The notes beneath the pieces were generated by a model, which was given only the letters and a program-made list of their open reading frames with translations, made no database searches and was not told the origin of the DNA. From Physcomitrium patens (Eukaryota > Streptophyta > Bryopsida > Funariales > Funariaceae): DNA of 64,000 nt. Location of the stretch: contig NC_037272.1 of assembly GCF_000002425.4 (NCBI RefSeq), forward strand, positions 14,893,599 to 14,957,598, read 5' to 3'. Position numbers and translations under genes: made by a program. This document shows positions 5,251 through 54,838 of the stretch, piece by piece (positions within the stretch are counted from its first letter, which is position 1; each line of letters begins with the position of its first letter).

Positions 5251-5294
5251 AGTGATATATGCAGATCATGAAGTAGAACTTTATCGCTGTACTG

Positions 5295-5411: not shown

Positions 5412-5649
5412 TTCCCGCTCATTCATCCTTATCTACGAGCACAGATCTTTACTTCCAGATCAGCATCGTCGGGTCTGTGTGGCCAGGCAAGGAACTTGGG
5501 CCGTTGGATCCGCCAGCCTGGCACATATGGGTGCAGCGGTGGCAGCGTTTGGGTGCGTTGGAGAATGGGCTGAGGGCCATGGCATGGCAAGTTGAAGGCA
5601 TGGGTTCACGGCTTAGTCTGGTCAGCAGCTCATTGAGTTTGTAAATATT

Positions 5650-25295: not shown

Positions 25296-25337
<42 letters not shown>

Positions 25338-31166: not shown

Positions 31167-31171
31167 TTTAG
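31167..31171. repeat. Target duplication TTTAG, left end of older gypsy element
   Basis: TTTAG directly before the LTR start. The matching copy, as CTAAA on this strand, is at 40520-40524, beyond the element's 3' LTR, which now points the other way. Confidence 0.75.
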
Positions 31172-31727
31172 TATAACAAGGTATAGATAAGATATTTTTA
31201 TTATTAGCACATAGAGATAGATAGTTGGAAGTTATAGAAGTTTCTAGAATTAGAGCTAAATTAATAGACTATGTAGGATCCATTGTGGAACATTCTAGAA
31301 AGAGCTTAAGGTAGTTATATAAGAGGAGTCCACTATGGAACATTCTAGAAAAAGCTTAGGGTGGTTATCTAGGTAGGGTCTACCATAGAATCTTCTAAAA
31401 AGGACTTAAGATGGTTATTTAAGTAAGATCCATCATCTAGGAATATTTTAAAAAGTATAGGATTATAGAATAAGGTAAAAAAATGACTAATCAAGGTCTT
31501 TTAAGAAGCTGACTAGATATGGCTTCAGATCTTCTTTCTTAGTAAATTTTGATTTTTCATCTTCTTGTTTGATTTGATTTGATTTTATTTCTATTTATTC
31601 AATTTTTTTTTATATTTTATTCCATTTAGTTTTATTATGGGCTATTTTATCATATTTTGTCATAAGGTTTTATGTGGTTTTAGATTAGAAGAGTCTTAAA
31701 CTCTCAAGATAGGCTGATCCTATATTA
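31172..31727 (+). repeat. 5' LTR of older gypsy element
   Basis: About 556 bp from TATAACAAGG to the base before the primer site. It matches, in reverse orientation, the 3' LTR at 40525-41052 and the LTR at 57089-57542, including three spaced copies of a CATTCTAGAAAG-like word. Confidence 0.8.
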
Positions 31728-31740
31728 TTGGTATCAGAGC
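31728..31740 (+). other. tRNA-Met primer binding site
   Basis: TTGGTATCAGAGC starts directly at the LTR end. TGGTATCAGAGC is the usual plant primer site complementary to the 3' end of initiator tRNA-Met. Confidence 0.85.
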
Positions 31741-32801
31741 AAGTATTAGACTATTCTTTGGTAAAGTGTCAATAGCCATCATTTACTTTAAGACCAATTT
31801 TTGTGGTCATACTAGATATTGTATTGAGGCTAAAATGAGCTACTTTAAAAAAAAAATCAACCGAAAAGTAAAAAGGCATTATAACAGTAGAGTCCAGAAA
31901 GAAATTATAACATGGGAGATATGGCGAAGCAATCCCACATAGAGGCTCAAATATAGCACATCTTAGGCCAAATATGTACTTTTTAAGGACAAATAGAAGC
32001 CTCTAAGACAAGAGAATTGACATATGCTAGGCTAAAATTGAGTAAACTTAGTACATACTCTAGGACTTCAAAACAAGAAGATGTATGTCAATGGCTCTTT
32101 AATATGCAATAATACTTCTAATTATCTAAGGCAAATACCACTGAAGAAATTATATATGAAGTTAGCTATTTGAAAGATGCAGTAGCTATTTGGTGGTAAC
32201 ATTGAGTTCAAAGCTATGGAGCTCAAGGTGGATTTTGTGATTGAGAAGAATTTGAAACCAAGTTTAGGAATCGATTTTGGCTCATCAATGTGGAGAAGAT
32301 AACACATGATTAGTTGGTAAATCTTATACAATCTAGGTGGATGTAAGATTATGTCTTCCAATTTAAGTCTTTATATCTCTAAATTGACAATATTTTAGAA
32401 GCAAAGATAATAGATTGATTTCCATGAGGTTTGAAACTTGCAGTCCAATGAGAGATAGAACTAAAGAATCCGCAAACATTTGAAGAGTTAATTAGGATTG
32501 CAGAGAGGGTTGATGCTATAGATTTTAAAAATCGTGGAACATGACCTATAGCACAAAATTCTATACCGCTATCTATTACTATGGCACAACAACCAATGCC
32601 AATAGGATTTAATGCCCTACAAGCATCATTGATACTACAAAGATGACAAATATTGGTGCAAAAGAGATTATGTTTCTATTTTTGAGAGCCAAGCCATCAA
32701 ATTGGATGTTATACAAATGTTAAAATTTGAGCACCAATAAAATAAGGCAGCTTTACAATCTTAAGATTCATTAAGTTGATAATAACACAAAGCAGGGAAA
32801 C
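31741..32801 (+). pseudogene. Older gypsy element: leader and gag, 5' part
   Basis: A gag-like reading is visible in fragments with many stops (for example around 31915-32110 and 32440-32520). The sequence stops at 32801 at the border of chromovirus copy A. The gag continues in the spacer from 44274 downward on the other strand. The homologous element at 54839-57542 is uninterrupted at the matching place (about 56485), which shows the original join. Confidence 0.75.
32797..32801. repeat. Left 5-bp flank of chromovirus A (GAAAC)
   Basis: It does not match A's right flank (ACTAA, 39174-39178). It is the exact reverse complement of the 5 bases left of copy B (GTTTC, 44270-44274). Confidence 0.8.
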
Positions 32802-33353
32802 TCTCAAGGACAAAGACTCCATGAGGGAAAATATACACCAAAAAGCTATCTCGATATAATAAGTCAAAATATAAACAAGTAGGTATATTAAAAGGAAACT
32901 GGAATGGCTATTGCCACAAGACAAGAAACTAAAGACTCTTGAACTTGGACTAGAAGCAAGAAAGGAGTTGACAAGAGTGAAGAAGCCTTCACTCTTGTCT
33001 CTATATATACTATCTAACTAGGGGCTACGTGGCGACGTTCTATAGGACCTCCAATATGTGTTGACTTTGTAGGACACATGCCTTGACTTATAAGGCAAGT
33101 TTTTCTACGTGTGGGCCACATAATTAGCTTGATCTTGAAGCTAACAACATGTGTGGCACATAGCCAACTTGTTGACCACGTTTCTAATCCAAAAAGCCAA
33201 TTAAAGACACCTATGAAGTCAAAGCAGCGTCTAGGAAGTTTCTAGGAAGCTTCTATATTAAATATTATAGAATTAACTTACTTTTATCTACTTTTACTTA
33301 CTTCTACCTATTTCTATATGTAATTATTAACTTACACGATTATGGCCGTGACA
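32802..33353 (-). repeat. 3' LTR of chromovirus A
   Basis: 552 bp. The ends read TGTCAC and, with one change, TTGAGA in element orientation. At five positions it shares the variant of copy B's 3' LTR and differs from both 5' LTRs. Confidence 0.95.
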
Positions 33354-33356
33354 TTA

Positions 33357-33367
33357 CCCCCCCTTCT
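33357..33367 (-). other. Polypurine tract of chromovirus A
   Basis: AGAAGGGGGGG on the minus strand, three bases before the 3' LTR. This is the usual plus-strand primer site. Confidence 0.85.
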
Positions 33368-33394
33368 AGAGACGAGTTCCACGAGGAGCGGTCA

Positions 33395-33817
33395 TCATAT
33401 GTTGAGGAAATCTATGATGCGACGAATTATATTCGCCACATACTCTGATCTCTGTTCTCTTCGAAGATGATTGATAGGGCCTCTCAACCATCGGTAGTGT
33501 CCCATACCAGGGCGGGAAGACCACCCAGTTATTTGATCATTGTTGAGGCCTTTGTAACTTCCTTCGAATAGAATATTCGGAACACCATCAGGAGTTGTTC
33601 CTACCTCTAGCAAAATCACCAAACATCGAGAGTCCCTTCCCAAATCGTGATACCAAACGCGTTGTATCTCACCATCTATTCGAGGAAGAACATGACGTTC
33701 TTGAAGATGTTCATCTCGATTGCGTCGTCTTGAAGGTTGTGACAATCGTAATGTTTCGTCCGGCAGGTCAGCAAACGAAGGTTCTTGAGTTGAATCCGCT
33801 GGTTGTTAGCTCTCCAT
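33395..33817 (-). pseudogene. ORF3 downstream of chromodomain (copy A), function unknown
   Basis: 140 codons from ATG at 33817 to the stop at 33395, broken at codon 4 by TAA (33808-33806). It begins 94 nt after the pol stop, in a different frame. The product would have an Arg-rich N-terminal part (SRRRNRDEHLQERHV) and a globular-looking C-terminal part (WYHDLGRDSRCLVILLEVG). No family was recognised. Confidence 0.6.
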
Positions 33818-33911
33818 CTAATTAGCGTCACAAATGTAAAGAAGTTACAAACAAGGATAGGAAATTGAATGTTATCTTGCCTCAATCTTGTCTCTTTTAT
33901 AAGAGAGATTT

Positions 33912-36900
33912 TCATCTTGGTTTTGATGGATGTCGTTGATGAAAAACTTTGACTTTAGCTGATGCATTTGCTAGATTCCTAGATGGCTCCCATGTGCGTT
34001 CACTAATATCATATCCGCGCCAATGAACAAGATATTCCAGCTTATTTCGGCGCCGCCTTGAGTCTAATATCTCTTCCACCTCAAATTCTTCATTATTATC
34101 TACTTCTATAGGAGGCGGTGGCATTTGTCTTCTTCCTTGTATATCCACTGTCTTATATGGTTCAAGAAGAGACACATGGAATACATGATGGATCTTCATT
34201 GACTCCGGTAGATGTAACCGATATGCAACTGGGTTGATCTGTTCAGAAACAGAAAAGGGGCCAAGCCTACGATAGTCCAACTTGTCACAAGGTCGAGTAG
34301 TCTTGATATTGCGATGAAGTAGCCATACCTTATCACCCACGTTGATTTGTGGTTGCTCCTTACGATATAGATCTGCGTTTATCTTTTGTCGTTCTTGAGC
34401 TTCCTTCAATTGCGTCTTCATTATTGCATGTAACTCTGACAACCGATTTGCCATATCTTCTGCTGCAGGATTATCAACTTTTGAAAAATCAAAAGTATCA
34501 AGTCGTGGATGATAGCCATAATTGGCAAAGAAAGGTGTTTGTTGCGTGGAAGAATGTACCGTATTATTATAAGCAAACTCTGCCAATGGCAGAAGGGTTG
34601 TCCAATCATCTTGTTGGTAGTTGATAGTACACCTTAAATATTGCTCCAAGACTTGGTTTATGCGCTCTGTTTGTCCATCAGTTTGAGGATGGAAAGCCGA
34701 AGATAGCTTTATGTCCACTTTTAAAATCTTGAAAAGGGTCCTCCAAAATCTTGACACAAATTGAGTTCCCCTATCTGATATGATATCTTTAGGTAATCCA
34801 TGATAGCGATAGATATTATCAATGAAAAGCTTATCTGTTTCTTCACCTGTGATAGATTTTGTACATGGCACAAAATGTGCCATCTTGGTGAAACGATCTA
34901 CTATCACAAATATAGAATCATAAGATCTTGAGCTTGGAAGATCTGTGATGAAATCCATAGAAACAGAAGACCATGGTTGTTCTGGTATAGGTAATGGCTG
35001 AAGAAGTCCGTAAGGTCAATGACGAGGAATTTTTGATCTTGAACAAATATCACATGATTGTACAAAGTCTTTGACTGACTTTCACATTTGTAGCCACCAA
35101 AAATCTCTTGATATGAGTTCCAAAGTCTTATTAAATCTAAAGTGCCCTGCTGTTGGAAAGTCATGACGTGCTTGAAGAACATGTAAACGTGCTTCTCCTT
35201 CTGGAACATATAGGCGTCCTTCAAAATATAATAGATTATTCTTGAACTCGAACTTAGAAGGATCATGAGACTTGGAAGAATTATTCTCGATATCATAAAC
35301 AAGAGGGTCTGAGGACATACTGGACTGGATTTGCTTGAGAAAAGTTGAATCAACAGTCAATGTTGATTTCATTGCTCGGAGATGAAATTGCTCCGGTTTC
35401 AAGAGGACCGTTCTTTGTTGCTCAAAAGCTGTATCTCCTTCTTTTGGTGCAAAATAAGAACGTCTAGATAGGGCATCGGATAAACCTTGTTGTTTTCCTA
35501 GCCGATAAGTGATAATGAACTCGAATCTTGACAAAGACATACTCCAACGAGCTTGACGACGATTCAACACGCATGCTGACATGAAATACTCGAGGTTCTT
35601 GTGATCTGTATATACAGTGACTGGACTATAAGCGCCTTTTAGATAATGATGCCATTCTTGATAGGAATCCATGATCGTAAGAAGTTCTTTATCGTGGATC
35701 TCATAATTGATCTCGGCTGCTGAGAATTTTCTTGAATGAAAAGCTATCGGATGAAGTTTGTCATCTGTTCCCATTTGTGATAAAACTGCACCCAAGGCAA
35801 AATCTGATGCATCTGTTTCCATAAAAAATGCCTTGGAAAAATCAACACGATATAAGACTGGTGCAGAGACAAACGATGTCTTCAAGGCTTCAAATACTGC
35901 TTCCGCTTCTTAATTCCATTGGAATTTATCTTTACTAGTCAAGCGTGTAAGTGGAGCTGCAACTCGTGAGAAATCTTTGATGAAGATTCGATAGTAATTG
36001 ACAAATCCCAAGAAACATTGGACATCTCTTACTGTCCTTGGAATCTTCCAATCCATGATTGTTTGGACTTTCTTAGAATCCATCATGAGACCATCATTTG
36101 AAATGATGTATCCTAAAAAGTCAACTTGAGTAGTGTGAAATACACACTTTTCCATCTTGGCGTACAATCCTGCATCTTTAAGTTTTTGTAATACTTGACA
36201 AACATGTATTTCATGTTCTTCGACGTTCTTAGAATAGATCAGGATATCGTCTAGATAGCAGACGATAAAATTGTCTAAGAATTCACGAAATACATCATTC
36301 ATGAGATGTTGAAAAGCAGCTGGTGCATTCGTGAGTCCAAAGGGCATGACATTATATTCGAAATGTCCATACCTGGTTCGAAACACAGTCTTCCATTCAT
36401 CTCCTTCTTTGATCCGTACTAGATTATATGCTCCTCTTAGATCTATTTTTGTATAGATCTTAGCTTGATTCAACTGGTCAAGGAGTCTTGATATCAAAGG
36501 TAATGGATACCTGTTCTTGATTGTGATCTTGTTGAGTCCTCGATAATCAACACACATTCGTAAAGATCCATCTTTTTTCTTTACGAATAGAATTGGAGCT
36601 CCTGCTGGAGATTTTGAATGGTGTATGAAATTCTTCGCTAAATTCTCGTCAATATATGTCTTGAGTTCAGCCATCTCATCTTGCGATAAACTGTAAATTG
36701 GTCCAAATGGTGGCTGAGTTCCTTCCTTGAGGTCGATTGAACAATCATATGGACGATGCTCAGGAAGAATATCTGCATTCTTTTTCTCAAAAACGTCTTG
36801 ATACTCCTGATATTGACTTGGAATGCCAATTGAAGTCTTTACGTTTTCAGAAATAGGTGCAGCATAAATAGCAAAAGTTGATCCTTCTTTTGCTGCGTGT

Positions 36901-37470
36901 ATAAATGCTTTTGCACCTATCAGTACGGGTCTTACTATACTAGACTTATAATTTTTTACTTGGTTGGTAGAACTATTAATAACGCTTTGGGAAAAGTCAA
37001 GTTTACACGAATTCCAATCTATTCGAGGGTTATATTTTTCTAGCCAGGATAAACCTAAAATAACTGGATTAGACGGGGATTTAATTATGTTAAAAGCTAT
37101 GTAGCTATCATGACCGTCTATTGTTACTTTTATAGGATGAGTTTCATGAGTGACATCTCCAGAAGACAAGGGACGACCATCTATGACTTCTACATGTACT
37201 GGTTTAGGTTTCTGTACAAAGGGTATTTTACGACTTTTAACAAATTGTTCATCTAAAAAACATGCTGAGGCTCCCGAATCTAATAAAGCAAAGGCTTTGT
37301 AATTCTTAGGTCCTAAATATAAGTCTATTATAAAACAAGGAGATGGTTCTGAGGAGAGGATAGGACCTTCATTAGGAATTGTACAAGGTTCCAGCTGCAC
37401 GGTCCCTATTGTAGCTGGACGAATCCGTTTTCCGACATGTTGTCTTCTTTGACCGTCGTACCCCTCATTT
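33912..37470 (-). pseudogene. pol: pol of chromovirus A, broken by three stops
   Basis: Protease DSGA (ALLDSGASACFLDEQ), reverse transcriptase YLDD, RNase H (METDASDFALG, YTDHKNLEYF), integrase zinc finger and core (MDFITDLPSS, SDRGTQFVSRFW, FHPQTDGQTERINQ), then a C-terminal chromodomain (EILDSRRRRNKLEYLVHWRG, ERTWEPSRNL). In-frame stops lie at 35912-35910 (TAA), 35084-35082 (TGA) and 35018-35016 (TGA). The first lies between reverse transcriptase and RNase H and the other two at the integrase zinc finger. The frame begins inside the gag end, shifted by -1. Confidence 0.93.
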
Positions 37471-38410
37471 TATAGTTGCGTCGTTTCCTTGGACAATATT
37501 GAGCAGTGTGCTTAGGTTCTCCGTAATATAAACATAATCCTTCTTGACGACGACGAATCTTTTCTTGCTCAGTTAGGGGTTTAAAACGTACCGCGTCAAT
37601 TTGCATGTCTTCTACTTCTGAATGTACGTTTGGCAAAGATGTTGATGTTGCCATTGAGTAATAACGTTGAGGTTCCCATGAATGATTCTCGGATCGAAAT
37701 TCGAAAAGTCGATTATCACATTTTACCGCAAAATCGATTGCTTGACTCAAAGTTTGAGGATCAGGTAAGTTGAGCATCAATTTCTTTACTTCATATTGCA
37801 ATCTATAAAGAAATTGACTGATGAGTGCAGCATCATCCCACTTGATGTCAATTGCAAGTTGTCGAAATTGTGAAGCATATACTGTTATTGAGCGATTTTC
37901 TTGTCGCAGAATTCGGATCTTATTTGTTGCAACACGAGTTGCATCGTGTTCACCATACATAGATCGAAACTCCGCCAAAAAAGCTTCCAAATTGTCCAAT
38001 ATTGGATTTCGTTGTTCAAGAAAAGACGAAAACCACGATAATGCAGAACCAAAAAGTAGAGTGCCAATAAACCTGACTTGTGATCCTGGAGTTGGATAGC
38101 TTTGCGGTTGAAGTTCAATTGCCAATTGTACTTGATTGATGAACCCTCAAAACTTTGATCTCGTACCATCAAATTTCTCAGGTAAGGCAATTCTTGGTTC
38201 TTTAGTGCTTATAGGGTGTTGTACAATTGGAGAAAGAACGTGATTTGTTGTAGATGTTGAAGCAGCTCCGATCATCTCTATATCTCCACTTTCTGCTATT
38301 CTTGTTCTTTCCTGTGTTGGTGAATTGAGTTGATGCATCGCAAGCATTAACTCCCTCATTTGCTCTTGCATTTGTGCCATTGCACTCTTCATTTCAACAA
38401 GCTCTGCCAT
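37406..38410 (-). pseudogene. gag: gag of chromovirus A, broken by one stop
   Basis: 334 codons from ATG at 38410, with a TGA at 38149-38147 (after EKFDGTRSKF). The nucleocapsid zinc knuckle reads CLYYGEPKHTAQYC. The second Cys of the CX2CX4HX4C pattern is Tyr. A decayed relative at about 52772 keeps Cys there. The gag stop (TAG) is conserved in older copies. Confidence 0.9.
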
Positions 38411-38608
38411 AATGACACTAAGAAGAAAAATTTGTTTGATATTGCTCAAGACAAAAGAAAAGAAAGACTTGATAACAGAGAAGATACTAAGAACAATATC
38501 AGTTTAGAAGTGGATAATCCGCAAACTTCTAATACGCTTATGCCTTGTCAAGAGAAAGGGGTAATCCACTCTTACTCAAGAAAAACAAAGCTCTGATATT
38601 GTAAGTGT

Positions 38609-38619
38609 ACTCTTGTCAA
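38609..38619 (-). other. Candidate self-primer binding site (copy A)
   Basis: TTGACAAGAGT on the minus strand, two bases after the 5' LTR. It is complementary to ACTCTTGTCAA inside the LTR at the predicted transcript start (38788-38798 on the plus strand reads TTGACAAGAGT). Same layout as in copy B. Confidence 0.6.
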
Positions 38620-38621
38620 TC

Positions 38622-39173
38622 TGTCAAGGACAAAGACTCGATGAGAGAAAATATACACCAAAAGGCTATCTCGATATAATAAGTCAAAATATAAACAAGT
38701 AGGTATATTAAAAGGAAACTGGAATGGCTATTGCCACAAGACAAGAAACTAAAGACTCTTGAACCTGGACTAGAAGCAAGAAAGGAGTTGACAAGAGTGA
38801 AGAAGCCTTCACTCTTGTCTCTATATATACTATCTAACTAGGGGCTACGTGGCGACGTTCTATAGGACCTCCAATATGTGTTGACTTTGTAGGACACATG
38901 CCTTGACTTACAAGGCAAGTTTTTCTACGTGTGGGCCACATAGTTAGCTTGATCTTCAAGCTAACAACATGTGTGGCACATGGCCAACTTGTTGACCACG
39001 TTTCTAATCCAAAAAGTCAATTAAAGACACCTATGAAGTCAAAGCAGCGTCTAGGAAGTTTCTAGGAAGCTTCTATATTAAATATTATAGAATTAATTTA
39101 CTTTTATCTACTTTTACTTACTTCTACCTATTTCTATATGTAATTATTAGCTTACATGATTATGGCCGTGACA
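38622..39173 (-). repeat. 5' LTR of chromovirus A
   Basis: 552 bp with TGTCAC and TTGACA ends. It shares five diagnostic bases with copy B's 5' LTR against both 3' LTRs. Confidence 0.95.
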
Positions 39174-40519
39174 ACTAAACTTCACTAAATCTTTTAAAGA
39201 ATTATAATTCTAACTCCTTCTAAATCATGTGAAATGATTATAGATGCATTCATAGGCTTTTGGTCAATCTTCATAGTAATGACTAACAACCTCTAAATTA
39301 TTAAAATTAATTAAGTTGGTATTCTAGTTCTCTAATTCTTATCATTTTATTCTTAATTAACCTAATTCAAGAAATTAAACTATAATTTATACCATCAAAG
39401 GTTTTAATCCTAAAAATTCTATAAAACTAAATTCTATTTATATAAATCATAATCTAATATATTCAATTATCATAAAATAAGATAATAACAAAAAATTAAA
39501 TTTTAAAGCATAATTGAGAGCTCACAGTTGACAAGTTCATGAAGATTTCTAATAGTTGTAAATCTATTCTTACTCCTACCAAGTGTATCATCTATTAATT
39601 TTATTTTTACTTTAAATAACTTAAAAAATTTGCAAGTAAAATCAGCGGAGGATAATTTACAATCTTTAATATCAAATGAAAATTACTACAAAAAAGAATA
39701 ATCCACTCTCTTTAAGGAATAAAATTAATAATATAAAACTCAATAGTTTATTTAAAGGTAAGTAATTTACAACCTTCAAAATACAACAACAAAAGTAGAG
39801 TAATTCACTCACTACTAAAATAAGAAAAAAACAATATGTTAACACTTTTGTCAAACTGTCAAAGATATGAATTTCAAAGAAAGAAATTTTTAATATATTT
39901 TTAAGTCACTAACCAAAAAATTATTGAAGATCTTAAAAATACTCACTAATCCTAAAATTCTAATTTTTAAGACCTTAATCTACAAGAACCTTCGCACACT
40001 TCAATCTAATCATTTGATTAATTTCAAAATTTGCATACACATTCAAAACTAGCACACCAATACATTTCCCAAAATTCACCTATACATACACTACAATACT
40101 TAAGAAACCCTCAAATTTGTAAACATAATTTTATTTCTTAAAATCTAAACCAACTGAGAATATTATTAAGTTTGAAAATCCCTCAAAAACTTAATATTGA
40201 CTCAAGTAACATAAAACTAATACCCAAAAATATTTATTTAAGTTTGCTCTTAAAATCCTATTTTTTAATCTCTCAAAGAATTCCACAATCAGTAGAGGTT
40301 TGTAGTTTTGTATTTTGCAGTCTAATTTCAATCTAGATTGACAATTGATCCTCTCTAGATATCAATTATTAGCTTCTTGATGTAAGTTTTAATAAAATCT
40401 ATTCTTAACTCCCTTCTATACATGTATATATCATTTTTTATTTTATTTACTTTGATTTGGCTTATTTATGCTTCTACAAAGTAAATAGAAGTCACTTCTA
40501 CAAAAAGATATTATTAAGA
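39174..40519. repeat. Decayed repeat shared with 29.5-30.2 kb
   Basis: The stretch at about 39905-40510 matches about 29560-30150 in the same orientation, for example TTTTTAAGACCTTAAT and CTACAAAGTAAATAGAAGTC. No coding content is readable. Confidence 0.55.
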
Positions 40520-40524
40520 CTAAA
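40520..40524. repeat. Target duplication CTAAA, far end of older gypsy element
   Basis: Reverse complement of TTTAG at 31167-31171, directly outside the 3' LTR. Confidence 0.75.
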
Positions 40525-41052
40525 TAAAACAAGACCAATCTATCTTAAGAATCTAAAACTCTTTTAATCCATAGTAATATAAAACTTCATCACAAAGTAG
40601 GATAAAATGGCCTAAAATAAAACTAAACAAAATTAAATGAAATATGATACAAAAGACAAAGTAAGCAAATAGAAATAGAACAAAATAAAACCAAAAAAGA
40701 AGATGTAAAATCAAATTTTATTATGAGAGAAGGTCTAAAACCATATTTGACTAGCTTCCAAAAGACCTCGGTCAATCCTATTTATATCTTATTCTATCAT
40801 CTTGTACTTTCTAAAATATTCTTAGATAATGGATCGTACTTAAATAACTATGTAAGTCCTTTTTAGAAGGTTCCATAGTAGACCCTATTTAGATAACTAT
40901 CCTAAGTTCTTTCTAGAATGTTCTATGATAGATCTTATATAGTCTACTAACCTAGCCATAATTCTAGAAACTTCCATAACTTTTCAAATATGGTTTCAAC
41001 TATCTATCCTTATGTGTCAACAATACAAATATCTTATTTATACCTTGTTACA
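40525..41052 (-). repeat. 3' LTR of older gypsy element
   Basis: About 528 bp starting TGTAACAAGG on the minus strand. It is preceded by a purine-rich tract (GGAGGAGGA, about 41055-41070). It aligns along its length with 31172-31727. Confidence 0.8.
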
Positions 41053-44000
41053 ATTAATCCTCCTCCACTAATGCAAAAATTCTTTATTTTTCTCTAGATG
41101 GTATCTCCAAATTATCTCTTGGGAATGAGTGAAGTTCTATGCAAGTTCCCATGTTGTATCATAGATGGAATAACTTTTTTAAAGAACTTTGTATTGAAGT
41201 TGTAAACATCTATTGCCACAGCAAAGATAGCAATGCTTCAAAATGCTGTCCACTTCGTACTCTTGTTGGTCATCAACTACAAATGGTGGTGGTAGTGGTT
41301 AGTATTAATCAGAAAGTGCTTTAGCTCGATATAAAATTCTTTGAGTTTCAAAACATAAAAGACTAGATGGACTCAAATATGTGGCGAAAGCTCAAGGTGG
41401 TATAAAACATAAGAAATCATTGTAAAAATGCAAAAAGATCCAAGCCACTAAGGTACCATTTTTCGAATTTGAGTTGATGTAGTAAGTGACAAATTGGAAT
41501 TGGAGAGTAATACTTAATCATCCTTGAAGAATGTCTTGTATTACTAGTGCTTATCCATGTATTACTTTTATCAATTTTGAGCAGTAAGGAGGTGGTGTCA
41601 TACTTCTTGTAAGGCCATTGTATAAATTCCTTTGTTATTAGGTTGTTAGTATTAATGTGATGATAGAAAATTACCGATGTAATCGTATGTTGATTAATAT
41701 TAAAAAAAAATGGTGAATGACCAATACTTACTTGAATACTATCATTGTAAGTAAACTCTAAAGACATCAAATATTGATCTCAGTTATTATGATGAACTAA
41801 CATAAATATCCATAGCATATCTTCTAAGATCTGATTTACACACTCTATTTGTCCATCTGTTTAGAGATAGAAGGCTGTAGACATAGCAAGTCATGTGCCT
41901 AATTGCTTTATTATGTTGATATGACTTACAAGAGCACAAAAAAGCTCAAACATCATAATCCAAACCTATCCAAAATCATGTCTTTGAGATCTATTTTAGG
42001 ATCTTTTCTTGTACTAGATGTCTAGATATTAGGATGTTATATTTTTCTAAAAATATATACATCTAGAATATAGCATTGTCAAGTATATAAATCCACTTCT
42101 TGAAATAGAATAAGCCATCATTAAAACTATAATCTTAATATTGTATATCACCCACTTTCAGTCGATTGCTAACCATCTTGAAAAAAATATCATAATATGT
42201 AGTTTTTTTTTTATTTTACCTCTTTAATTAGGTTTGAAATGATACTATTAATGGTAGGAGTTTCTACCTTGTTTCTTGATTCGGCCTTCAAATCTAGTCT
42301 TTACAATAAGTTGTCTAGCATAGTATATTATTATCCTTGCTTGTACTCAAGCTAGATATCAAAAAGATGCAACTCTTCTTCCCAAGAATAATCTTGTGCT
42401 TTCATATTTTTCAGATACAAATCATGTAGCAAGGACCAATGGTTAATTTTGAACAACCATTAGCTTATCCAGCAGATAGTATCATCACACTTTTGTGGCA
42501 TGTACAATTACCAATTGCTCTCAATCACATGCAAAGTAATTGTGTTTTGTCCTTCTAAGCCTGCATGATTTATATGCCCCAACTTGAAAGCTTCTACCAA
42601 AGTCTTGTTGAAGGACCATTCTAATAGCAAAGTTGGAAGCATCAATATCAAGTGTACAAAGAAGTTTGAGATCATACAGTTGCAATATAAGAGTAGTAAA
42701 GAGTACATCCTTCAACATATCAAAAGTACTTTGCTGCTCCAATTTCCATTCAAATGGGGCACCCTTCTCTAATAGGTTTGTCAATGAAGCAGTAATATGT
42801 ATAAATTATCAAAAAAAACAATAATAATATCTAATAAGACCTAAAAAAGAATGAACTTCACAAGCATCCTTGGATGTTGGACAATCTTCTATTGCTTTTA
42901 TCTTATCCTACTCCATGTGCATGCCTTTAGAAGATACCACATGATTCCAAAAAGTGACTTTTGACTTCTAAAGTTCATATTTTGATTGTTTACAATAGAA
43001 GTGATTATCTTGCAAATGACACAACACTTTTTGTAGATGTTGCTCATACTCCTCATAGGTATTACTATATACAAAGATATCATCAATGAAGAAGAGTACA
43101 TACTTATCTAAAAGGTCCTGAAATAATCTGTTCATATGACCTATAAAAGAGGCTGGAGTATTGATAAGGCTAAAAGATAAAACAAGCCATTCAAAATATC
43201 TATAGCGCATATGAAATGGAGTTGTTTTTATATCCTCTATTACAATAGGTATTTTCCAATAGTTACTTCAAATATCTAATTTGTTAAAGATAGTCATACC
43301 TCAAAGTTAATAAAAAAGATCATCCATACAAAAAAGCAAATATATATTCTTAATAGTCTGCTTATTGAGGCCTCGATAGTCAATGCAAAGCCAAAGTCCA
43401 CCATCCTTCTTTGGTGCAAAGAATAGACATGCTCCCTATAGTCATGTGCTTTCTCAAATGAGGCATTTTTCTAAGAATTTATCTAATGTCTTCTATAGCT
43501 CTTCAAGTTCATTTGATACTAGGCAATAAATTGGTCAACTTGCCAATTTGGTTGTAAGCAGTAGTTCTATTTGAAAAGACGTACTTCAATCATGAGGCAT
43601 GCTATTAAGTAGGTCGGTTGGAAAGACATCTCGATATTTTCATATGAATTACTCTATCCATTCTATTCTTTCAGCTGTCTTTTCTACTATTGATGCAAGA
43701 TTTGAAACTACTATATATACCAATTGCTTGTATTGTATTTCTACTTCATAAAAGTCATCCCTATAAATAAATCTTTAATTATAATTTTTTTTTCTTCACT
43801 TAATACAAAGGTATAAAGAATTATCTTGCATCCACCATTTTTGAAAGAAATTGTCTTTGCTATCTAATCAACTTTCTTATTTTTTTATTTCTAGCCATGG
43901 CATACCAAAGATAATATCATATTTTAGCTTTGTTACCTTGAACTTTTTTCTTAAGACATAGGTATAAAATAACCTAAAGGTTTGTTCTTCACATGTCTCA

Positions 44001-44274
44001 CTCAATATGTTCTCTCAGTTATTTGTAAGGAATATATTCTCTCCTTGAATTACGTTAATTTTAATTCCAAGTCAATAGGTAATTTTAATTGAAATATAAT
44101 TTTTTGTAGAGCCACAATCTACAAGCACTCGACATAGATGTCTTCTTGATAATCGTGTTAAATGCTCTAGTCAATTTTTTTTTATAGTAGTGTAAGGCCA
44201 TACCATTTTTCTCCGAAAGATAATAGCTATTCTCAATATTGGCCCTCGATACCTTTATTGAGAAGCTTCGTTTC
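41053..44274 (-). pseudogene. pol: Older gypsy element: pol, 3' part
   Basis: Reading downward from 44274: gag end, protease (LVDCGSTKNYIS, about 44125-44090), reverse transcriptase (FFIDDIFVYSNTYEEYEQHL, about 43095-43030), RNase H (LDIDASNFAI, about 42660-42630) and integrase core (LEFTYNDSIQVSIGHSPFF, about 41765-41705). Frames are broken throughout. The missing 5' portion is at 31172-32801. Confidence 0.8.
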
Positions 44275-44826
44275 TGTCACCGCCATAATCATGTAAGTTA
44301 ATAATTACATATAGAAATAGGTAGAAGTAAGTAAAAGTAGATAAAAGTAAATTAATTCTATAATATTTAATATAGAAGCTTCCTAGAAACTTCCTAGATG
44401 TTGCTTTGACTTCATAAGTGTCTTTAATTGACTTTTTGGATTAGAAACGTGGTCAACAAGTTGGCCATGTGCCACACATGTTGTTAGCTTCAAGATCAAG
44501 CTAATTATGTGGCCCACACGTAGAAAAACTTGCCTTGTAAGTCAAGGCATGTGTCCTACAAAGTCAACACATATTGGAGGTCCTATAGAACGTCGCCACG
44601 TAGCCCCTAGTTAGATAGTATATATAGAGACAAGAGTGAAGGCTTCTTCACTCTTGTCAACTCCTTTCTTGCTTCTAGTCCAGGTTCAAGAGTCTTTAGT
44701 TTCTTGTCTTGTGGCAATAGCCATTCCAGTTTCCTTTTAATATACCTACTTGTTTATATTTTGACTTATTATATCGAGATAGCCTTTTGGTGTATATTTT
44801 CTCTCATCGAGTCTTTGTCCTTGACA
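44275..44826 (+). repeat. 5' LTR of chromovirus B
   Basis: 552 bp, starting TGTCAC and ending TTGACA. The promoter TATA box (TATATATA) is at 44619-44626. A perfect 13-bp hairpin follows (44629-44641 with 44646-44658). Confidence 0.95.
44619..44660 (+). promoter_or_regulatory. LTR core promoter, hairpin and predicted transcript start
   Basis: TATATATA at 44619-44626 sets an expected start about 31 bp on, near 44650. The 11 bases from there, ACTCTTGTCAA (44650-44660), are complementary to the primer site after the LTR. GACAAGAGTGAAG and CTTCACTCTTGTC form a perfect 13-bp stem with a 4-nt loop. Confidence 0.6.
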
Positions 44827-44828
44827 GA

Positions 44829-44839
44829 TTGACAAGAGT
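44829..44839 (+). other. Candidate self-primer binding site (copy B)
   Basis: TTGACAAGAGT, two bases past the LTR end at 44826. It pairs over all 11 bases with 44650-44660. In Tf1 of fission yeast the first 11 bases of the transcript anneal in just this way. A second motif, ATATCAGAGC at 44849-44858, resembles the core of a tRNA-Met site but lies over 20 nt from the LTR. Confidence 0.6.
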
Positions 44840-45037
44840 ACACTTACAATATCAGAGCTTTGTTTTTCTTGAGTAAGAGTGGATTACCCCTTTCTCTTGA
44901 CAAGGCATAAGCGTATTAGAAGTTTGCGGATTATCCACTTCTAAACTGATATTGTTCTTAGTATCTTCTCTGTTATCAAGTCTTTCTTTTCTTTTGTCTT
45001 GAGCAATATCAAACAAATTTTTCTTCTTAGTGTCATT

Positions 45038-46042
45038 ATAGCAGAGCTTGTTGAAATGAAGAGTGCAATGGCACAAATGCAAGAGCAAATGAGGGAGTTA
45101 ATGCTTGCGATGCATCAACTCAATTCACCAACACAGGAAAGAACAAGAATAGCAGAAAGTGGAGATATAGAGATGATCGGAGCTGCTTCAACATCTACAA
45201 CAAATCACGTTCTTTCTCCAATTGTACAACACCCTATAAGCACTAAAGAACCAAGAATTGCCTTACCTGAGAAATTTGATGGTACGAGATCAAAGTTTTG
45301 AGGGTTCATCAATCAAGTACAATTGGCAATTGAACTTCAACCGCAAAGCTATCCAACTCCAGGATCACAAGTCAGGTTTATTGGCACTCTACTTTTTGGT
45401 TCTGCATTATCGTGGTTTTCGTCTTTTCTTGAACAACGAAATCCAATATTGGACAATTTGGAAGCTTTTTTGGCGGAGTTTCGATCTATGTATGGTGAAC
45501 ACGATGCAACTCGTGTTGCAACAAATAAGATCCGAATTCTGCGACAAGAAAATCGCTCAATAACAGTATATGCTTCACAATTTCGACAACTTGCAATTGA
45601 CATCAAGTGGGATGATGCTGCACTCATCAGTCAATTTCTTTATAGATTGCAATATGAAGTAAAGAAATTGATGCTCAACTTACCTGATCCTCAAACTTTG
45701 AGTCAAGCAATCGATTTTGCGGTAAAATGTGATAATCGACTTTTCGAATTTCGATCTGAGAATCATTCATGGGAACCTCAACGTTATTACTCAATGGCAA
45801 CATCAACATCTTTGCCAAACGTACATTCAGAAGTAGAAGACATGCAAATTGACGCGGTACGTTTTAAACCCCTAACTGAGCAAGAAAAGATTCGTCGTCG
45901 TCAAGAAGGATTATGTTTATATTACGGAGAACCTAAGCACACTGCTCAATATTGTCCAAGGAAACGACGCAACTATAAAATGAGGGGTACGACGGTCAAA
46001 GAAGACAACATGTCGGAAAACGGATTCGTCCAGCTACAATAG
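45038..46042 (+). pseudogene. gag: gag of chromovirus B, start codon lost and one internal stop
   Basis: The start codon used in copy A is ATA here (45038-45040). The next in-frame ATG is five codons on. TGA at 45299-45301 cuts the frame after EKFDGTRSKF. The frame reopens and runs to TAG at 46040-46042. The capsid part includes LFGSALSWFSSFLEQRN. The zinc knuckle has Tyr (TAC, 45923-45925) for the second Cys. Confidence 0.9.
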
Positions 46043-49000
46043 GGACCGTGCAGCTGGAACCTTGTACAATTCCTAATGAAGGTCCTATCCTCTCCTCAGA
46101 ACCATCTCCTTGTTTTATAATAGACTTATATTTAGGACCTAAGAATTACAAAGCCTTTGCTTTATTAGATTCGGGAGCCTCAGCATGTTTTTTAGATGAA
46201 CAATTTGTTAAAAGTCGTAAAATACCCTTTGTACAGAAACCTAAACCAGTACATGTAGAAGTCATAGATGGTCGTCCCTTGTCTTCTGGAGATGTCACTC
46301 ATGAAACTCATCCTATAAAAGTAACAATAGACGGTCATGATAGCTACATAGCTTTTAACATAATTAAATCCCCGTCTAATCCAGTTATTTTAGGTTTATC
46401 CTGGCTAGAAAAATATAACCCTCGAATAGATTGGAATTCGTGTAAACTTGACTTTTCCCAAAGCGTTATTAATAGTTCTACCAACCAAGTAAAAAATTAT
46501 AAGTCTAGTATAGTAAGACCCGTACTGATAGGTGCAAAAGCATTTATACACGCAGCAAAAGAAGGATCAACTTTTGCTATTTATGCTGCACCTATTTCTG
46601 AAAACGTAAAGACTTCAATTGGCATTCCAAGTCAATATCAGGAGTATCAAGACGTTTTTGAGAAAAAGAATGCAGATATTCTTCCTGAGCATCGTCCATA
46701 TGATTGTTCAATCGACCTCAAGGAAGGAACTCAGCCACCATTTGGACCAATTTACAGTTTATCGCAAGATGAGATGGCTGAACTCAAGACATATATTGAC
46801 GAGAATTTAGCGAAGAATTTCATACACCATTCAAAATCTCCAGCAGGAGCTCCAATTCTATTCGTAAAGAAAAAAGATGGATCTTTACGAATGTGTGTTG
46901 ATTATCGAGGACTCAACAAGATCACAATCAAGAACAGGTATCCATTACCTTTGATATCAAGACTCCTTGACCAGTTGAATCAAGCTAAGATCTATACAAA
47001 AATAGATCTAAGAGGAGCATATAATCTAGTACGGATCAAAGAAGGAGATGAATGGAAGACTGCGTTTCGAACCAGGTATGGACATTTCGAATATAATGTC
47101 ATGCCCTTTGGACTCACGAATGCACCAGCTGCTTTTCAACATCTCATGAATGATGTATTTCGTGAATTCTTAGACAATTTTATCGTCTGCTATCTAGACG
47201 ATATCCTGATCTATTCTAAGAACGTCGAAGAACATGAAATACATGTTTGTCAAGTATTACAAAAACTTAAAGATGCAGGATTGTACGCCAAGATGGAAAA
47301 GTGTGTATTTCACACTACTCAAGTTGACTTTTTAGGATACATCATTTCAAATGATGGTCTCATGATGGATTCTAAGAAAGTCCAAACAATCATGGATTGG
47401 AAGATTCCAAGGACAGTAAGAGATGTCCAATGTTTCTTGGGATTTGTCAATTACTATCGAATCTTCATCAAAGATTTCTCACGAGTTGCAGCTCCACTTA
47501 CACGCTTGACTAGTAAAGATAAATTCCAATGGAATTAAGAAGCGGAAGCAGTATTTGAAGCCTTGAAGACATCGTTTGTCTCTGCACCAGTCTTATATCG
47601 TGTTGATTTTTCCAAGGCATTTTTTATGGAAACAGATGCATCAGATTTTGCCTTGGGTGCAGTTTTATCACAAATGGGAACAGATGACAAACTTCATCCG
47701 ATAGCTTTTCATTCAAGAAAATTCTCAGCAGCCGAGATCAATTATGAGATCCACGATAAAGAACTTCTTACGATCATGGATTCCTATCAAGAATGGCATC
47801 ATTATCTAGAAGGCGCTTATAGTCCAGTCACTGTATATACAGATCACAAGAACCTCGAGTATTTCATGTCAGCATGCGTGTTGAATCGTCGTCAAGCTCG
47901 TTGGAGTATGTCTTTGTCAAGATTCGAGTTCATTATCACTTATCGGCTAGGAAAACAACAAGGTTTATCCGATGCCCTATCTAGACGTTCTTATTTTGCA
48001 CCAAAAGAAGGAGATACAGCTTTTGAGCAACAAAGAACGGTCCTCTTGAAACCGGAGCAATTTCATCTCCGAGCAATGAAATCAACATTGACTGTTGATT
48101 CAACTTTTCTCAAGCAAATCCAGTCCAGTATGTCCTCAGACCCTCTTGTTTATGATATCGAGAATAATTCTTCCAAGTCTCATGATCCTTCTAAGTTCGA
48201 GTTCAAGAATAATCTATTATATTTTGAAGGACGCCTATATGTTCCAGAAGGAGAAGCACGTTTACGTGTTCTTCAAGCACGTCATGACTTTCCAACAGCA
48301 GGGCACTTTAGATTTAATAAGACTTTGGAACTCATATCAAGAGATTTTTGGTGGCTACAAATGTGAAAGTCAGTCAAAGACTTTGTACAATCATGTGATA
48401 TTTGTTCAAGATCAAAAATTCCTCGTCATTGACCTTACGGACTTCTTCAGCCATTACCTATACCAGAACAACCATGGTCTTCTGTTTCTATGGATTTCAT
48501 CACAGATCTTCCAAGCTCAAGATCTTATGATTCTATATTTGTGATAGTAGATCGTTTCACCAAGATGGCACATTTTGTGCCATGTACAAAATCTATCACA
48601 GGTGAAGAAACAGATAAGCTTTTCATTGATAATATCTATCGCTATCATGGATTACCTAAAGATATCATATCAGATAGGGGAACTCAATTTGTGTCAAGAT
48701 TTTGGAGGACCCTTTTCAAGATTTTAAAAGTGGACATAAAGCTATCTTCGGCTTTCCATCCTCAAACTGATGGACAAACAGAGCGCATAAACCAAGTCTT
48801 GGAGCAATATTTAAGGTGTACTATCAACTACCAACAAGATGATTGGACAACCCTTCTGCCATTGGCAGAGTTTGCTTATAATAATACGGTACATTCTTCC
48901 ACGCAACAAACACCTTTCTTTGCCAATTATGGCTATCATCCACGACTTGATACTTTTGATTTTTCAAAAGTTGATAATCCTGCAGCAGAAGATATGGCAA

Positions 49001-49536
49001 ATCGGTTGTCAGAGTTACATGCAATAATGAAGACGCAATTGAAGGAAGCTCAAGAACGACAAAAGATAAACGCAGATCTATATCGTAAGGAGCAACCACA
49101 AATCAACGTGGGTGATAAGGTATGGCTACTTCATCGCAATATCAAGACTACTCGACCTTGTGACAAGTTGGACTATCGTAGGCTTGGCCCCTTTTCTGTT
49201 TCTGAACAGATCAACCCAGTTGCATATCGGTTACATCTACCGGAGTCAATGAAGATCCATCATGTATTCCATGTGTCTCTTCTTGAACCATATAAGACAG
49301 TGGATATACAAGGAAGAAGACAAATGCCACCGCCTCCTATAGAAGTAGATAATAATGAAGAATTTGAGGTGGAAGAGATATTAGACTCAAGGCGGCGCCG
49401 AAATAAGCTGGAATATCTTGTTCATTGGCGCGGATATGATATTAGTGAACGCACATGGGAGCCATCTAGGAATCTAGCAAATGCATCAGCTAAAGTCAAA
49501 GTTTTTCATCAACGACATCCATCAAAACCAAGATGA
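45979..49536 (+). pseudogene. pol: pol of chromovirus B, broken by three stops
   Basis: Open from 45979, overlapping the end of gag by 64 nt in the -1 frame. Domains in order: protease (DSGA, about 46167), reverse transcriptase (YLDD, about 47190), RNase H (about 47620-47990), integrase (zinc finger about 48280-48420, core with MDFITDLPSS at 48490 and FHPQTDGQTERIN at 48760), chromodomain (about 49360-49480). Stops: TAA 47536-47538, TGA 48364-48366, TGA 48430-48432. All three positions are shared with copy A. The chromodomain would steer integration toward modified histones in related elements. Confidence 0.93.
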
Positions 49537-49630
49537 AAATCTCTCTTATAAAAGAGACAAGATTGAGGCAAGATAACATTCAATTTCCTATCCTTGTTTG
49601 TAACTTCTTTACATTTGTGACGCTAATTAG

Positions 49631-50053
49631 ATGGAGAGCTAACAACCAGCGGATTCAACTCAAGAACCTTCGTTTGCTGACCTGCCGGATGAAACATTAC
49701 GATTGTCACAACCTTCAAGACGACGCAATCGAGATGAACATCTTCAAGAACGTCATGTTCTTCCTCGAATAGATGGTGAGATACAACGCGTTTGGTATCA
49801 CGATTTGGGAAGGGACTCTCGATGTTTGGTGATTTTGCTAGAGGTAGGAACAACTCCTGATGGTGTTCCGAATATTCTATTCGAAGGAAGTTACAAAGGC
49901 CTCAACAATGATCAAATAACTGGGTGGTCTTCCCGCCCTGGTATGGGACACTACCGATGGTTGAGAGGCCCTATCAATCATCTTCGAAGAGAACAGAGAT
50001 CAGAGTATGTGGCGAATATAATTCGTCGCATCATAGATTTCCTCAACATATGA
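49631..50053 (+). pseudogene. ORF3 downstream of chromodomain (copy B), function unknown
   Basis: Same frame as in copy A: ATG at 49631, TAA at codon 4 (49640-49642), then 136 open codons to the stop. It occupies most of the space between pol and the polypurine tract. No signal peptide, membrane segment or known motif is visible. Confidence 0.6.
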
Positions 50054-50080
50054 TGACCGCTCCTCGTGGAACTCGTCTCT

Positions 50081-50091
50081 AGAAGGGGGGG
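50081..50091 (+). other. Polypurine tract of chromovirus B
   Basis: AGAAGGGGGGG followed by TAA and the 3' LTR start TGTCAC. Confidence 0.85.
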
Positions 50092-50094
50092 TAA

Positions 50095-50646
50095 TGTCAC
50101 GGCCATAATCGTGTAAGTTAATAATTACATATAGAAATAGGTAGAAGTAAGTAAAAGTAGATAAAAGTAAGTTAATTCTATAATATTTAATATAGAAGCT
50201 TCCTAGAAACTTCCTAGACGCTGCTTTGACTTCATAGGTGTCTTTAATTGGCTTTTTGGATTAGAAACGTGGTCAACAAGTTGGCCATGTGCCACACATG
50301 TTGTTAGCTTCAAGATCAAGCTAATTATGTGGCCCACACGTAGAAAAACTTGCCTTGTAAGTCAAGGCATGTGTCCTACAAAGTCAACACATATTGGAGG
50401 TCCTATAGAACGTCGCCACGTAGCCCCTAGTTAGATAGTATATATAGAGACAAGAGTGAAGGCTTCTTCACTCTTGTCAACTCCTTTCTTGCTTCTAGTC
50501 TAAGTTCAAGAGTCTTTAGTTTCTTGTCTTGTGGCAATAGCCATTCCAGTTTCCTTTTAATATACCTACTTATTTATATTTTGACTTATTATATCGAGAT
50601 AGCCTTTTGGTGTATATTTTCCCTCATCGAGTCTTTGTCCTTGACA
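50095..50646 (+). repeat. 3' LTR of chromovirus B
   Basis: 552 bp. It shares the 3'-specific base with copy A's 3' LTR at five positions and has private changes such as TCTAAG for TCCAGG near 50500. Confidence 0.95.
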
Positions 50647-51899
50647 TTAATAATGATAGTTTTGAGCTTTCTTCCAAATTCGACAAATTTAAGTGGCATG
50701 GTAGTTTTTCTAATTAATGGAAGTCTTTTAATGCAATGGTGGCATCGGATTTACCCCATGGAGTGAAGAAAACAAGATCAGCACCTTCTCCTTTAAAATA
50801 CAAGTGAAGAAATGAAATTCTCATTTTGAAGAATTTTACAAAAAAATTGCTAAGATCCTTGTAAGTAAAAACTTCTATGAAAATTATAATTGAGCATGGA
50901 TTGAAGCATGTGAGTAGTTGACCCTAGCTTATAAAGGTGATTTGAAGACAATAGTAAAGTTAGATCTATCAAATAATGCTTTTTTGACCACTTACAAGAG
51001 TCATCAGCCTTGGTAACGAGATTGGCTCTTGGATGAATGAAGATTGTAGATCTAGATTAGGGATCTTAGAAATCAAGGGTGGAGATGCAGCCACCCTTCT
51101 ATGAGCCTCCACTCAATTGTATAAGAGAGGGCAAAGCCATGCTGAAGTTTGGCCTTAAATCCTTACCTTAAATTTTATTTTTGATTTTATTATAAACTTG
51201 TGGTTGTGTATGCATGGATTTGGAGTAGTAAATAATAGTCATTGGAGTTTTAAGTCATAGATCATTGTCGTAGATAGTTTCTTTGGCCTTCCAAATATCC
51301 TAAGGATTCAAGAGCCTTAGATTTCCCTCAATCAATCATTCATTTTTTTTATTTTGATGTGAATTCTTTTTGTGGTTGTATCTTTTGTTGTTAGCTTTTT
51401 AACAAGATAAGGATCGCTTAATTTGGAGTAAGGGCGGAATTTTGGTAGAATTTAGGATTTGCAGGGGTCAGCTACCTTGGCAGTTTAGATCAACCACCTT
51501 TGAAAAATAATTTCTTAGTGGCTTCTAATTAAATTATTGTGAAATTTTGGAATTAAAAGCACCTTCAAGTTGAGATTCTAATGGCATAGATTTCACTAAA
51601 TTTTAATTTATATATCTATCTATCTTAATTAATTATATTTTTATAATTATATAAAAAATTAGTAATTATGGATTATATAAATAAAATTGAAGAGTCTATT
51701 GAGATTTAAGTAGAGATCATATAAATAGCCTTGAAGATCATAGTATTTTCATTAAATCTTTTTGTTTTATTTTGGTAACCACTACTTGGAAGGCTTAAAA
51801 TTAATTAAATTTTTAATTATAAAGATTTAAACCAATTTAAGAATTACACAATTAGAAGCTCTTATATTCCACCTTTTGAACTTCTTGTGTGACATTTGT
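50647..51899. other. AT-rich DNA, unassigned
   Basis: No clear coding frame or LTR. Under the inversion model its left end was once joined to the reverse complement of 39174 onward. Confidence 0.4.
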
Positions 51900-54838
51900 T
51901 TCATTGAGTGGTGAAATTTAGGCTCATATCAATACTCTTAGAGTAAAAATTTCATGCATCACTAGTGCCAACCATAGAAATATTAATCCTACACTCATAG
52001 AAGAAGTTCAAAATCTATGTCAAGAAGTTGTGCAGTTCAAAGAAGCAAGTAGATTAATTCTAATAACAAATTCAGGAAGTATTGCTTCTACAAGTATGAC
52101 AGGGATATGGATTAATATGCTTGATAAGTTTGATGGAATAAAATCAAAATTTCAAGGATTTCTACAACAAATAAAGCTTTAACTAAAGTTGCATCCCTTC
52201 TAATATCTTGATAGATTTACTCAAGTTGGATTCATATGCGTACTTTTATTTTCAAAAGTGCTCTTTGTTGGTTTGCATCATTAATGAAAAGAGATTCACA
52301 AATCTTGTATGATTTGAATTCATTCCTAGAATTTTTTATGGCTACATTCAAAGCTAGTGATTAAAAAAGAGTAGCAAAGATCAAACTCTTATTTTTATGA
52401 CAAGGCTAACAATCAACTATTATATATGTTGTTAAATTCCAAAATCTTACTTGCAATGTGGATTAGAATGACAAAGTTTTCATCAATAAATTTTGATATG
52501 TGTTGAAGGATAATATCAAAGAGTTATTATTGACAATGCCAAAAGCAGAATCTTTGAAACAATTTATTATTCAAGTTATTACATGCAATGATTGATTATT
52601 TGAAAGATATTAAAAACAAATATTTGGCTAGAGAAGAACAAGCCAAGTAATGACGGCACCTTTCAAGTTTTTTAAAAAATTATATATCAAGACTAGAACT
52701 AATGTAAATTGATATGATATATTTTAAATCCATCATTAAATAAGAAAAGACTCAATGTTATTAAGAGGATTTGTGCTTATATTGTGGAAAAGCTAAGCAC
52801 ATTATTCAACATTGTCCAAAGAAGCAATGCAATTATACAATAAGGAGTACAATTGCCAAAGAAGGCAATATTTCAAAAATAAGTTTTTTTAGCTACAATA
52901 GGGACCCTGCAGCTAGAATTATATGCAATACCGAATAAAGGTTCTATTCTCTCCTCAGATTTTTCATCTTGTTTTATAATAGATGTGTATTTAGGACCTA
53001 AAAATTACAAATTCTTTACATTATTAATTTAAAGAGCCTCACCCTGTTCATAGACAAAGACTTTGTCAAAAAACAAGAAATATCTTTAATCAAGAAACCT
53101 TAATTTGTATGTGTAGAAGTCATAGATGGTCGTTTATTGTCTTCTAGAGATGTTATTCATGAGACTATTTTTTAGATATAAAATTAAAGATTATAATAGT
53201 ATAGTAATATTTAATAAAATAAGATCTCTCTCTAATCCAATTACTTTAGGATTATTGTGATTACACAAATATAATTCTTGGATAGCTTAAATTTCTTGTA
53301 ATTTTAAATTTTCTTCTAATTTAATCTAAAATTTTAATTATGGACTAAAAATAGATAAGCCTAATACATCCAAATCCTTACTAATAAGTACAAAAGCTTT
53401 CATTTATGTGGCAAAAGAAGGATCATCTTTTGTTCTATATGCCTTACTTGTTTTTTATGGTGAAAAGATATCAATTAATATTTTTAGCTAATATTAAGAT
53501 TTTTGAGTTGTTTTTGAAAAAAAAATACAGATATTCTTTCAAAACATTGATCCTATGATTGTTGAATTAATCTGTAAGAAAGAGCTCAACTACCATTGAG
53601 GTCAATCTACAACTTATCACAAAATGAATTGGCTACATTAAATGAATACATTGACAAGAATTTGGCTAAGAATTTCATATACTATTCAAAATCTCTAACA
53701 TGAGCTCTTATCTTATTTGTAAAGGAAAAAGATGACTCTGTGTAGATATGCATAGACTATTAAGGACTTAACAAGATCACCATCAAGAATAAGTATTTCT
53801 TACTTTTGGTTTTAGAACTTCTTGACCAACTCAATTGAACAAAGATCTATATAAAAATAGATCTATAAAGAGCATATAGTCTCATCCATATCAAAGAAAG
53901 AGATGAATAGAAGACTATTTTTTTAATTAGGTTTTAAAATTTTGAATATAATGTCATGCCTTTTAGACTCACAAATATATAAGATAATTTTTAATATCTA
54001 ATGAATGATGTCTTTTGTGAGTTTTTTGATGATTTTATTGTGTATTATTTAGATGACATTCTAATCTATTCTAAAAATATAAAAAACATATACTTCATGT
54101 TTGTTGTATATTACAAAAACTTAGAGATGCATGATCATATACAAAGCTAGAAAAGAATGTATTCCATAGTACTAAAGTTGATGTTTTAGGATACATTATT
54201 TTCAATGAAGGATTGATGATAGATTATAAGAAGGTTTAGAATATCATGAATTAGAAGGTCTCAAAAATAGTCAAAGATATACAATTTTTTTGAGATTTAT
54301 CAATTATTATTGAATTTTCATTAAAAAAAATTTTCAAGTTGTAGTTTCTTTTACATGCTTGATATATAAAGACAAACTTGAATAAAGCAAAGAAGCTAAA
54401 AGATGTTTTAAAGCCTTGAAGATATTATTTATTTTAGCACCAATTTTATATTGCTTTGATTTTTCTAAGGTATTTTTTATGAAAATAGATGCATCAAACT
54501 TTGTTATAGGTGGTATCTTATTATAAATGGGAGAAAATAATAAGCTCCATTTGATAACTTTTATTTCAAGAAATTTTACGTAATTAAGATCAACTATATA
54601 ATCCACAACAAAGAGCTTTTTACAATTGTAGATTCATTTCAAGAATGGTGTCATTATTTAAAAGGTATTTCTAATCCAATTATTATATATATAATATATA
54701 ATAACCTCAAGTACTTCATATTAATATATGTTTTGAATCATCACCAAGCCTATTAGAATATGTCTTTATCAAGATTTATTTTGAAGATTACTTAAAGATC
54801 TGGAAAACAACAAGGTTTATCATATGCCCTTTCAACAA
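51900..54838 (+). mobile_element. Decayed plus-strand chromovirus, truncated
   Basis: Same family as A and B but much older. Gag is readable near 52117-52200 (LDKFDG). The zinc knuckle CLYCGKAKHIIQHC (about 52772-52815) is intact. The gag-end string CTACAATAGGGACC recurs near 52896. Protease surroundings (VEVIDGR, about 53110) and reverse transcriptase YLDDILIYSKN (about 54045-54080) are visible. RNase H runs to about 54835, where homology stops and a minus-strand element begins. Confidence 0.8.

Follow-up and report, generated by a model that had tools for sequence, protein, structure and literature searches.

Retrotransposon recombination-mediated inversion (RRMI) has been described for pairs of L1 and Alu elements in human and chimpanzee (PMC2603318), and a review depicts inverted transposable elements (TEs) as giving rise to an inversion when they recombine (PMC5857280). 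Among the long terminal repeat (LTR) retrotransposons of plants, unequal recombination has been given as an origin of intact elements that lack target duplications (PMC7251063). Here, we consider two inverted chromovirus copies, A and B, in a window of 64,000 nucleotides from the moss Physcomitrium patens (assembly GCF_000002425.4, contig NC_037272.1, positions 14,893,599 to 14,957,598 of the forward strand). We think it likely, from sequence comparisons within this genome, that the two insertions underwent homologous recombination with a long conversion tract and a crossover, and that the DNA between them was truly inverted.

The mechanism is of a kind already described and the pair is best read as a further case of RRMI. 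As in the published examples, the apparent inversion lies between two inverted insertions, the elements would be chimeric, with mismatched target-site copies, and the target sites serve to infer the ancestral state (PMC2603318). The moss pair is unlike those examples in that the elements are LTR retrotransposons and the ancestral order is read from paralogous repeats, not from sister species. It also displays a long conversion tract, whereas the term 'gene conversion' has no occurrence in the main text of that description (PMC2603318). Recombination between elements and gene conversion of plant LTR retrotransposons likewise involve homology-driven exchange between LTR sequences (PMC7251063), but the exchange considered here would have taken place between two elements and covered nearly the whole internal region. 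We found no literature joining Physcomitrium LTR retrotransposons, ectopic recombination and inversion in the one literature library that was searched.

Copies A and B are 6372 bp each and align over their full length with 20 mismatches and 0 gaps. They are inverted and 5101 bp apart, so that homologous elements in opposite orientation occupy both breakpoints, as in RRMI; this geometry had been given in the original prediction and its coordinates hold (Table 1). Open frames of at least 150 aa have equal lengths in A and B (239, 496, 267 and 348 aa). The four frames of B have Pfam matches to Gag, protease, reverse transcriptase, RNase H, integrase and a chromodomain, the last following the integrase, which is the content of an RLG1-like chromovirus. 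RLG1 of P. patens is an abundant gypsy family of TE-rich regions with a chromodomain in its integrase (PMC7466625). A and B fit this family in domain content and abundance (4909 first-look candidates for the LTR in the genome), the two properties on which the assignment as RLG1-like is based. The 3' LTR of A ends in GAGA rather than GACA (32802-32805; G at sense position 6371), the terminal CA being lost. At this position B has C, and the 19 other copies aligned have C in 15, T in two and a gap in two.

The first line of evidence comes from the target sites. The flanks of each copy differ, A lying between GAAAC and ACTAA and B between GTTTC and TTAAT. Taken crosswise they agree, as they do in RRMI, with one pair exact (GAAAC/GAAAC) and the other carrying one change (TTAGT/TTAAT); the letters and the crosswise match are as originally predicted. 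Random pairs of 5-mers drawn from the window match exactly with a frequency of 0.0017 (0.17%) and with at most one mismatch with a frequency of 0.023 (2.3%). The chance of both crosswise matches together is ~4e-5, or about twice that when the choice of pairing is allowed for. As a control, we examined 24 other family copies. Each of the 16 that satisfied a full-length filter is flanked by an exact target duplication of 5 bp, and therefore the lack of one is unusual among the copies seen. Among the eight copies that failed the filter, L020, L031 and L032 match exactly and L023 matches with its end shifted by one base; L013, L015, L027 and L028 have mismatched flanks and at least one poorly located end. 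The target of the right-hand insertion could be followed in 15 loci, reading TTAGT in four, TTAGC in eight, TTAAC in L045 and TTGGC in L047, with a gap in L048. The single change between TTAGT and TTAAT most likely arose in the right-hand copy, TTAAT, because that position is G in 14 of the 15 loci and A in one (L045).

The second line of evidence concerns the order of the spacer. An older gypsy element, with LTR stretches that are ~78% alike, has its 5' part to the left of A and its remainder on the opposite strand within the spacer. Its TTTAG and CTAAA target copies are present where the original prediction had placed them. We re-inverted 39174-44274, the check that had been proposed, and aligned three joins, each built from short arms and one target copy, to relatives in the same genome. 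A join was taken to be through when at least 25 bases aligned on both sides of it. The genome searches scored the best 40 first-look candidates and the relatives used are the closest, not all. The first join, within the gypsy element, connects the sequence left of A with the distal spacer end. It is through in all 12 relatives (the best 12 of 39 non-self matches listed), and the A join and the B join as assembled are each through in 0 of 12. The second, at the right-hand target, connects the near spacer end with the sequence right of B and is through in all 15 loci, with each as-assembled join through in 0 of 15. These loci represent 14 distinct places, L034 and L057 being the same place, and comprise seven non-self loci and seven further non-self matches reaching the query start, one of them represented twice. 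The third join, at the target of the old gypsy element itself (31171 to the reverse complement of 40519), is through in 7 of 8 loci; a dummy control in which the gypsy LTR replaced the second arm is through in 0 of 8. The relative within the window to which the original prediction pointed also aligns across a re-inverted join (211 columns, 72%, E 1e-24). The possibility that the gypsy halves come from different insertions was tested by the third join, on which they evidently belong to one insertion. The spacer as assembled is inverted relative to its ancestor because the re-inverted joins go through in relatives and the as-assembled joins do not. The un-inverted order is ancestral, as in RRMI, although it is seen via paralogous relatives rather than an orthologous locus.

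An inverted order in the assembly might nevertheless have been made by the assembler. Conversion could have occurred in the plant without a crossover and the 5.1 kb spacer could then have been misoriented between two 6.4 kb near-identical inverted repeats, a wrong path that yields exactly these crosswise target sites. The terminal differences between A and B extend 231 and 361 bp inward from the unique flanks, roughly as far as a single anchored read would reach, and the window may come from an older build of 27 pseudochromosomes. We nonetheless regard this main rival as unlikely. It requires that a genuine exchange was followed by an independent error, there are 0 N in the window and clones of ~8 kb could have fixed the orientation of the spacer in a Sanger assembly. 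Lang et al. reportedly presented a P. patens build of 27 pseudochromosomes in 2018. The near-complete build has 26 chromosomes (PMC13120521).

A second trace of exchange, absent from the original prediction, lies within the elements. A and B differ at seven positions in sense 1-231, at six in 232-6011 (5780 bp) and at seven in 6012-6372, so that the outer 592 bp hold 14 of the 20 differences. Counted per 500 bp (last bin 372 bp), the differences run 7, 1, 1, 0, 0, 1, 0, 2, 0, 0, 1, 0, 7. In 20,000 random placements, none had as few as six in any 5780-bp stretch (minimum 11). For comparison with the family, 24 copies were fetched and 19 kept for alignment; L013, L015, L020, L027 and L028 were set aside because they were incomplete, diverged or poorly placed. 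A and B are each separated from the 19 other full-length copies by 123-192 substitutions and from one another by 20. The 171 pairs among the 19 differ by 58-232 substitutions (median 123), with a mean of 5.8-11.9 differences per bin and a highest end share of 0.19. At their ends, A and B have diverged to about the extent usual between family copies, while their interiors are nearly identical.

Such a pattern might be blamed entirely on the assembly, if two ordinary copies diverged by 2% had been merged and one consensus used twice, giving rise to both the orientation and the identical interiors. The differences between A and B are indeed dense only near the unique flanks. However, other copies were kept apart in the same assembly, and the identical interior is harder to attribute to assembly because all 171 other pairs stay at least 58 substitutions apart, the figure for the closest. 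In addition, each of the six interior differences is a transition and three of them occur in no copy but A, as expected of mutations that followed an exchange. We judge an artefact of this extent to be very improbable.

A and B have in common 39 substitutions and one 1-bp deletion, all absent from the 19 other copies. Of these substitutions, 36 fall in sense 553-5820, a number that is not unusual for the singletons of a single copy (10-76). C>T or G>A changes make up 26 of the 36, the same bias as in the singletons of the other copies (343 of 487). The shared derived changes form a continuous tract with diverged sequence outside it, the pattern of gene conversion, and two shared sites lie beyond the core tract. 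Both 3' LTRs have G at sense 5837 and 5977, a state seen in neither 5' LTR of the pair and at neither end of any of the 19 others. Retrotransposition copies both LTRs from one template and therefore these changes, confined to the 3' LTRs, arose after insertion in one copy and passed to the other. By this evidence the interiors of A and B were homogenised after insertion, which is independent evidence for sequence exchange between the two.

An origin of A and B as two insertions from one recent source already carrying the shared changes, with no mutual exchange, is hardly credible. It draws on the 39 changes absent from the 19 others, which are the only members of a large family compared base by base. 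It also predicts even divergence and matching LTRs in each element, whereas the ends differ about as much as those of other pairs do. The shared changes in the 3' LTRs alone contradict it and the flanks are left unexplained. We rejected it on the diverged ends and the 3'-LTR-only changes. A segmental duplication was rejected on the same two observations together with the different flanks and their separate target copies.

The direction of the exchange is suggested by L010, the nearest of the 19 copies to both A and B (125 and 123 differences, respectively). At sites 24, 217 and 231 its LTRs share their minor states with the 5' LTR of B and both 3' LTRs. This hints, weakly, that the donor may have been a copy of the L010 subtype and the recipient the copy that now holds the 5' LTR of A. 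The hint is weak because, in shared minority states of the interior, L009, L010 and L012 are level (21 of 76).

Recombination of two inverted insertions, which we favour, would have proceeded as follows. Two RLG1-like elements would have inserted independently and in opposite orientation, the left into the old gypsy element at GAAAC and the right into another repeat at TTAGT. The inverted copies would later have paired and recombined, and in one exchange or closely linked exchanges nearly the whole interior of one would have been replaced by that of the other, with gene conversion spanning at least sense 588-6011. Resolution as a crossover would have inverted the spacer and left each element a hybrid with one target-site copy from each insertion. 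We infer a single event for conversion and crossover and, likewise, that the spacer truly lies as assembled. A crossover inverting this spacer, as originally predicted, is supported by the three ancestral joins and by the homogenised interiors, with the qualification that a misoriented assembly would give the same flanks.

Several observations weigh against this reading. The orientation rests on one assembly, and at the third join L042, one of the eight loci, aligns on one side only. Distances between LTRs failed as a test of crosswise versus own pairing, since the crosswise pairs are not favoured: there are 14 differences between the 3' LTR of A and the 5' LTR of B and 10 between the 3' LTR of B and the 5' LTR of A, versus 13 within A and 11 within B. 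The edges of the tract are not clean, as LTR site 77 and sense 6229 are common to A and B outside the core. At site 77 both 5' LTRs have the base A, as does one of the 19 other copies for each end; at sense 6229 both 3' LTRs have the base A and none of the 19 others does. Repeated deamination is a plausible source of the sharing at 6229 because the context is CAG, with a neighbouring C>T in B. Finally, all seven differences in sense 1-231 are departures of B, with A carrying the commonest state.

A variant in which the locus is a natural flip switch is, in our view, quite unlikely. The 6.4 kb inverted repeats would be kept alike by repeated conversion, the 5.1 kb spacer would invert back and forth, and strains or cells of one plant would carry both orientations.

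Table 1. Coordinates in the window of copies A and B, their target sites, the spacer and the host repeats.
Feature	Position	Strand	Remarks
Copy A, full-length chromovirus (RLG1-like)	32802-39173	minus	A/B alignment
Copy A 3' LTR	32802-33353	minus	
Copy A 5' LTR	38622-39173	minus	
Copy A section near-identical to B	33163-38942	minus	Sense 232-6011; 6 differences/5780 bp
Copy B, full-length chromovirus (RLG1-like)	44275-50646	plus	A/B alignment and frames/domains
Copy B 5' LTR	44275-44826	plus	
Copy B 3' LTR	50095-50646	plus	
Copy B section near-identical to A	44506-50285	plus	Sense 232-6011
GAAAC, outer target-site copy of left insertion	32797-32801	plus	
GAAAC, partner of 32797-32801	44270-44274	minus	
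TTAGT, inner target-site copy of right insertion	39174-39178	minus	
TTAAT, outer target-site copy of right insertion	50647-50651	plus	
Spacer between A and B	39174-44274		5101 bp; apparently inverted relative to ancestral order
Old gypsy element, 5' part	31172-32801	plus	LTR, primer-site-like TGGTATCAGAGC at 31729-31740 (by eye), following stretch
Old gypsy element, remainder to 3' LTR	40525-44274	minus	Apparently now inverted
TTTAG, old gypsy target-site copy	31167-31171	plus	
TTTAG (CTAAA on plus), partner of 31167-31171	40520-40524	minus	
Repeat hosting right-hand insertion, inner half	39179-39537	minus	
Repeat hosting right-hand insertion, outer half	50652-51606	plus	

Elsewhere in the window, an older stretch at 52742-54833 (plus strand) is 72% alike to the pol part of the interior of A and B. 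This pol-like stretch adjoins a relative of the old gypsy element (54836-57542, minus strand) at a head-to-head junction, 54833/54836. Two LTR-like stretches at 1966-2292 and 3938-4263 form a small inverted pair, ~73% alike, and ~128-3488 contains additional fragments similar to older chromovirus sequence. Short tracts at 25289-25354 and 3633-3686 match one another at 93-100% in opposite orientation.

If the recombination that we favour did take place, the locus documents homologous recombination between dispersed LTR elements, with a conversion tract and an inversion both readable there. The moss host is a plant known for efficient gene targeting, and a link between the event and efficient recombination in mosses, as drawn in the original prediction, is plausible. 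After such an exchange, the dating of elements from their LTRs goes wrong, which A and B illustrate: their distances between 5' and 3' LTRs (13 and 11, respectively) are the largest of the 21 copies compared. The locus also offers a concrete site at which to check the assembly. Should the flip switch prove true, it would serve as a native reporter from which somatic homologous recombination in heterochromatin could be read.
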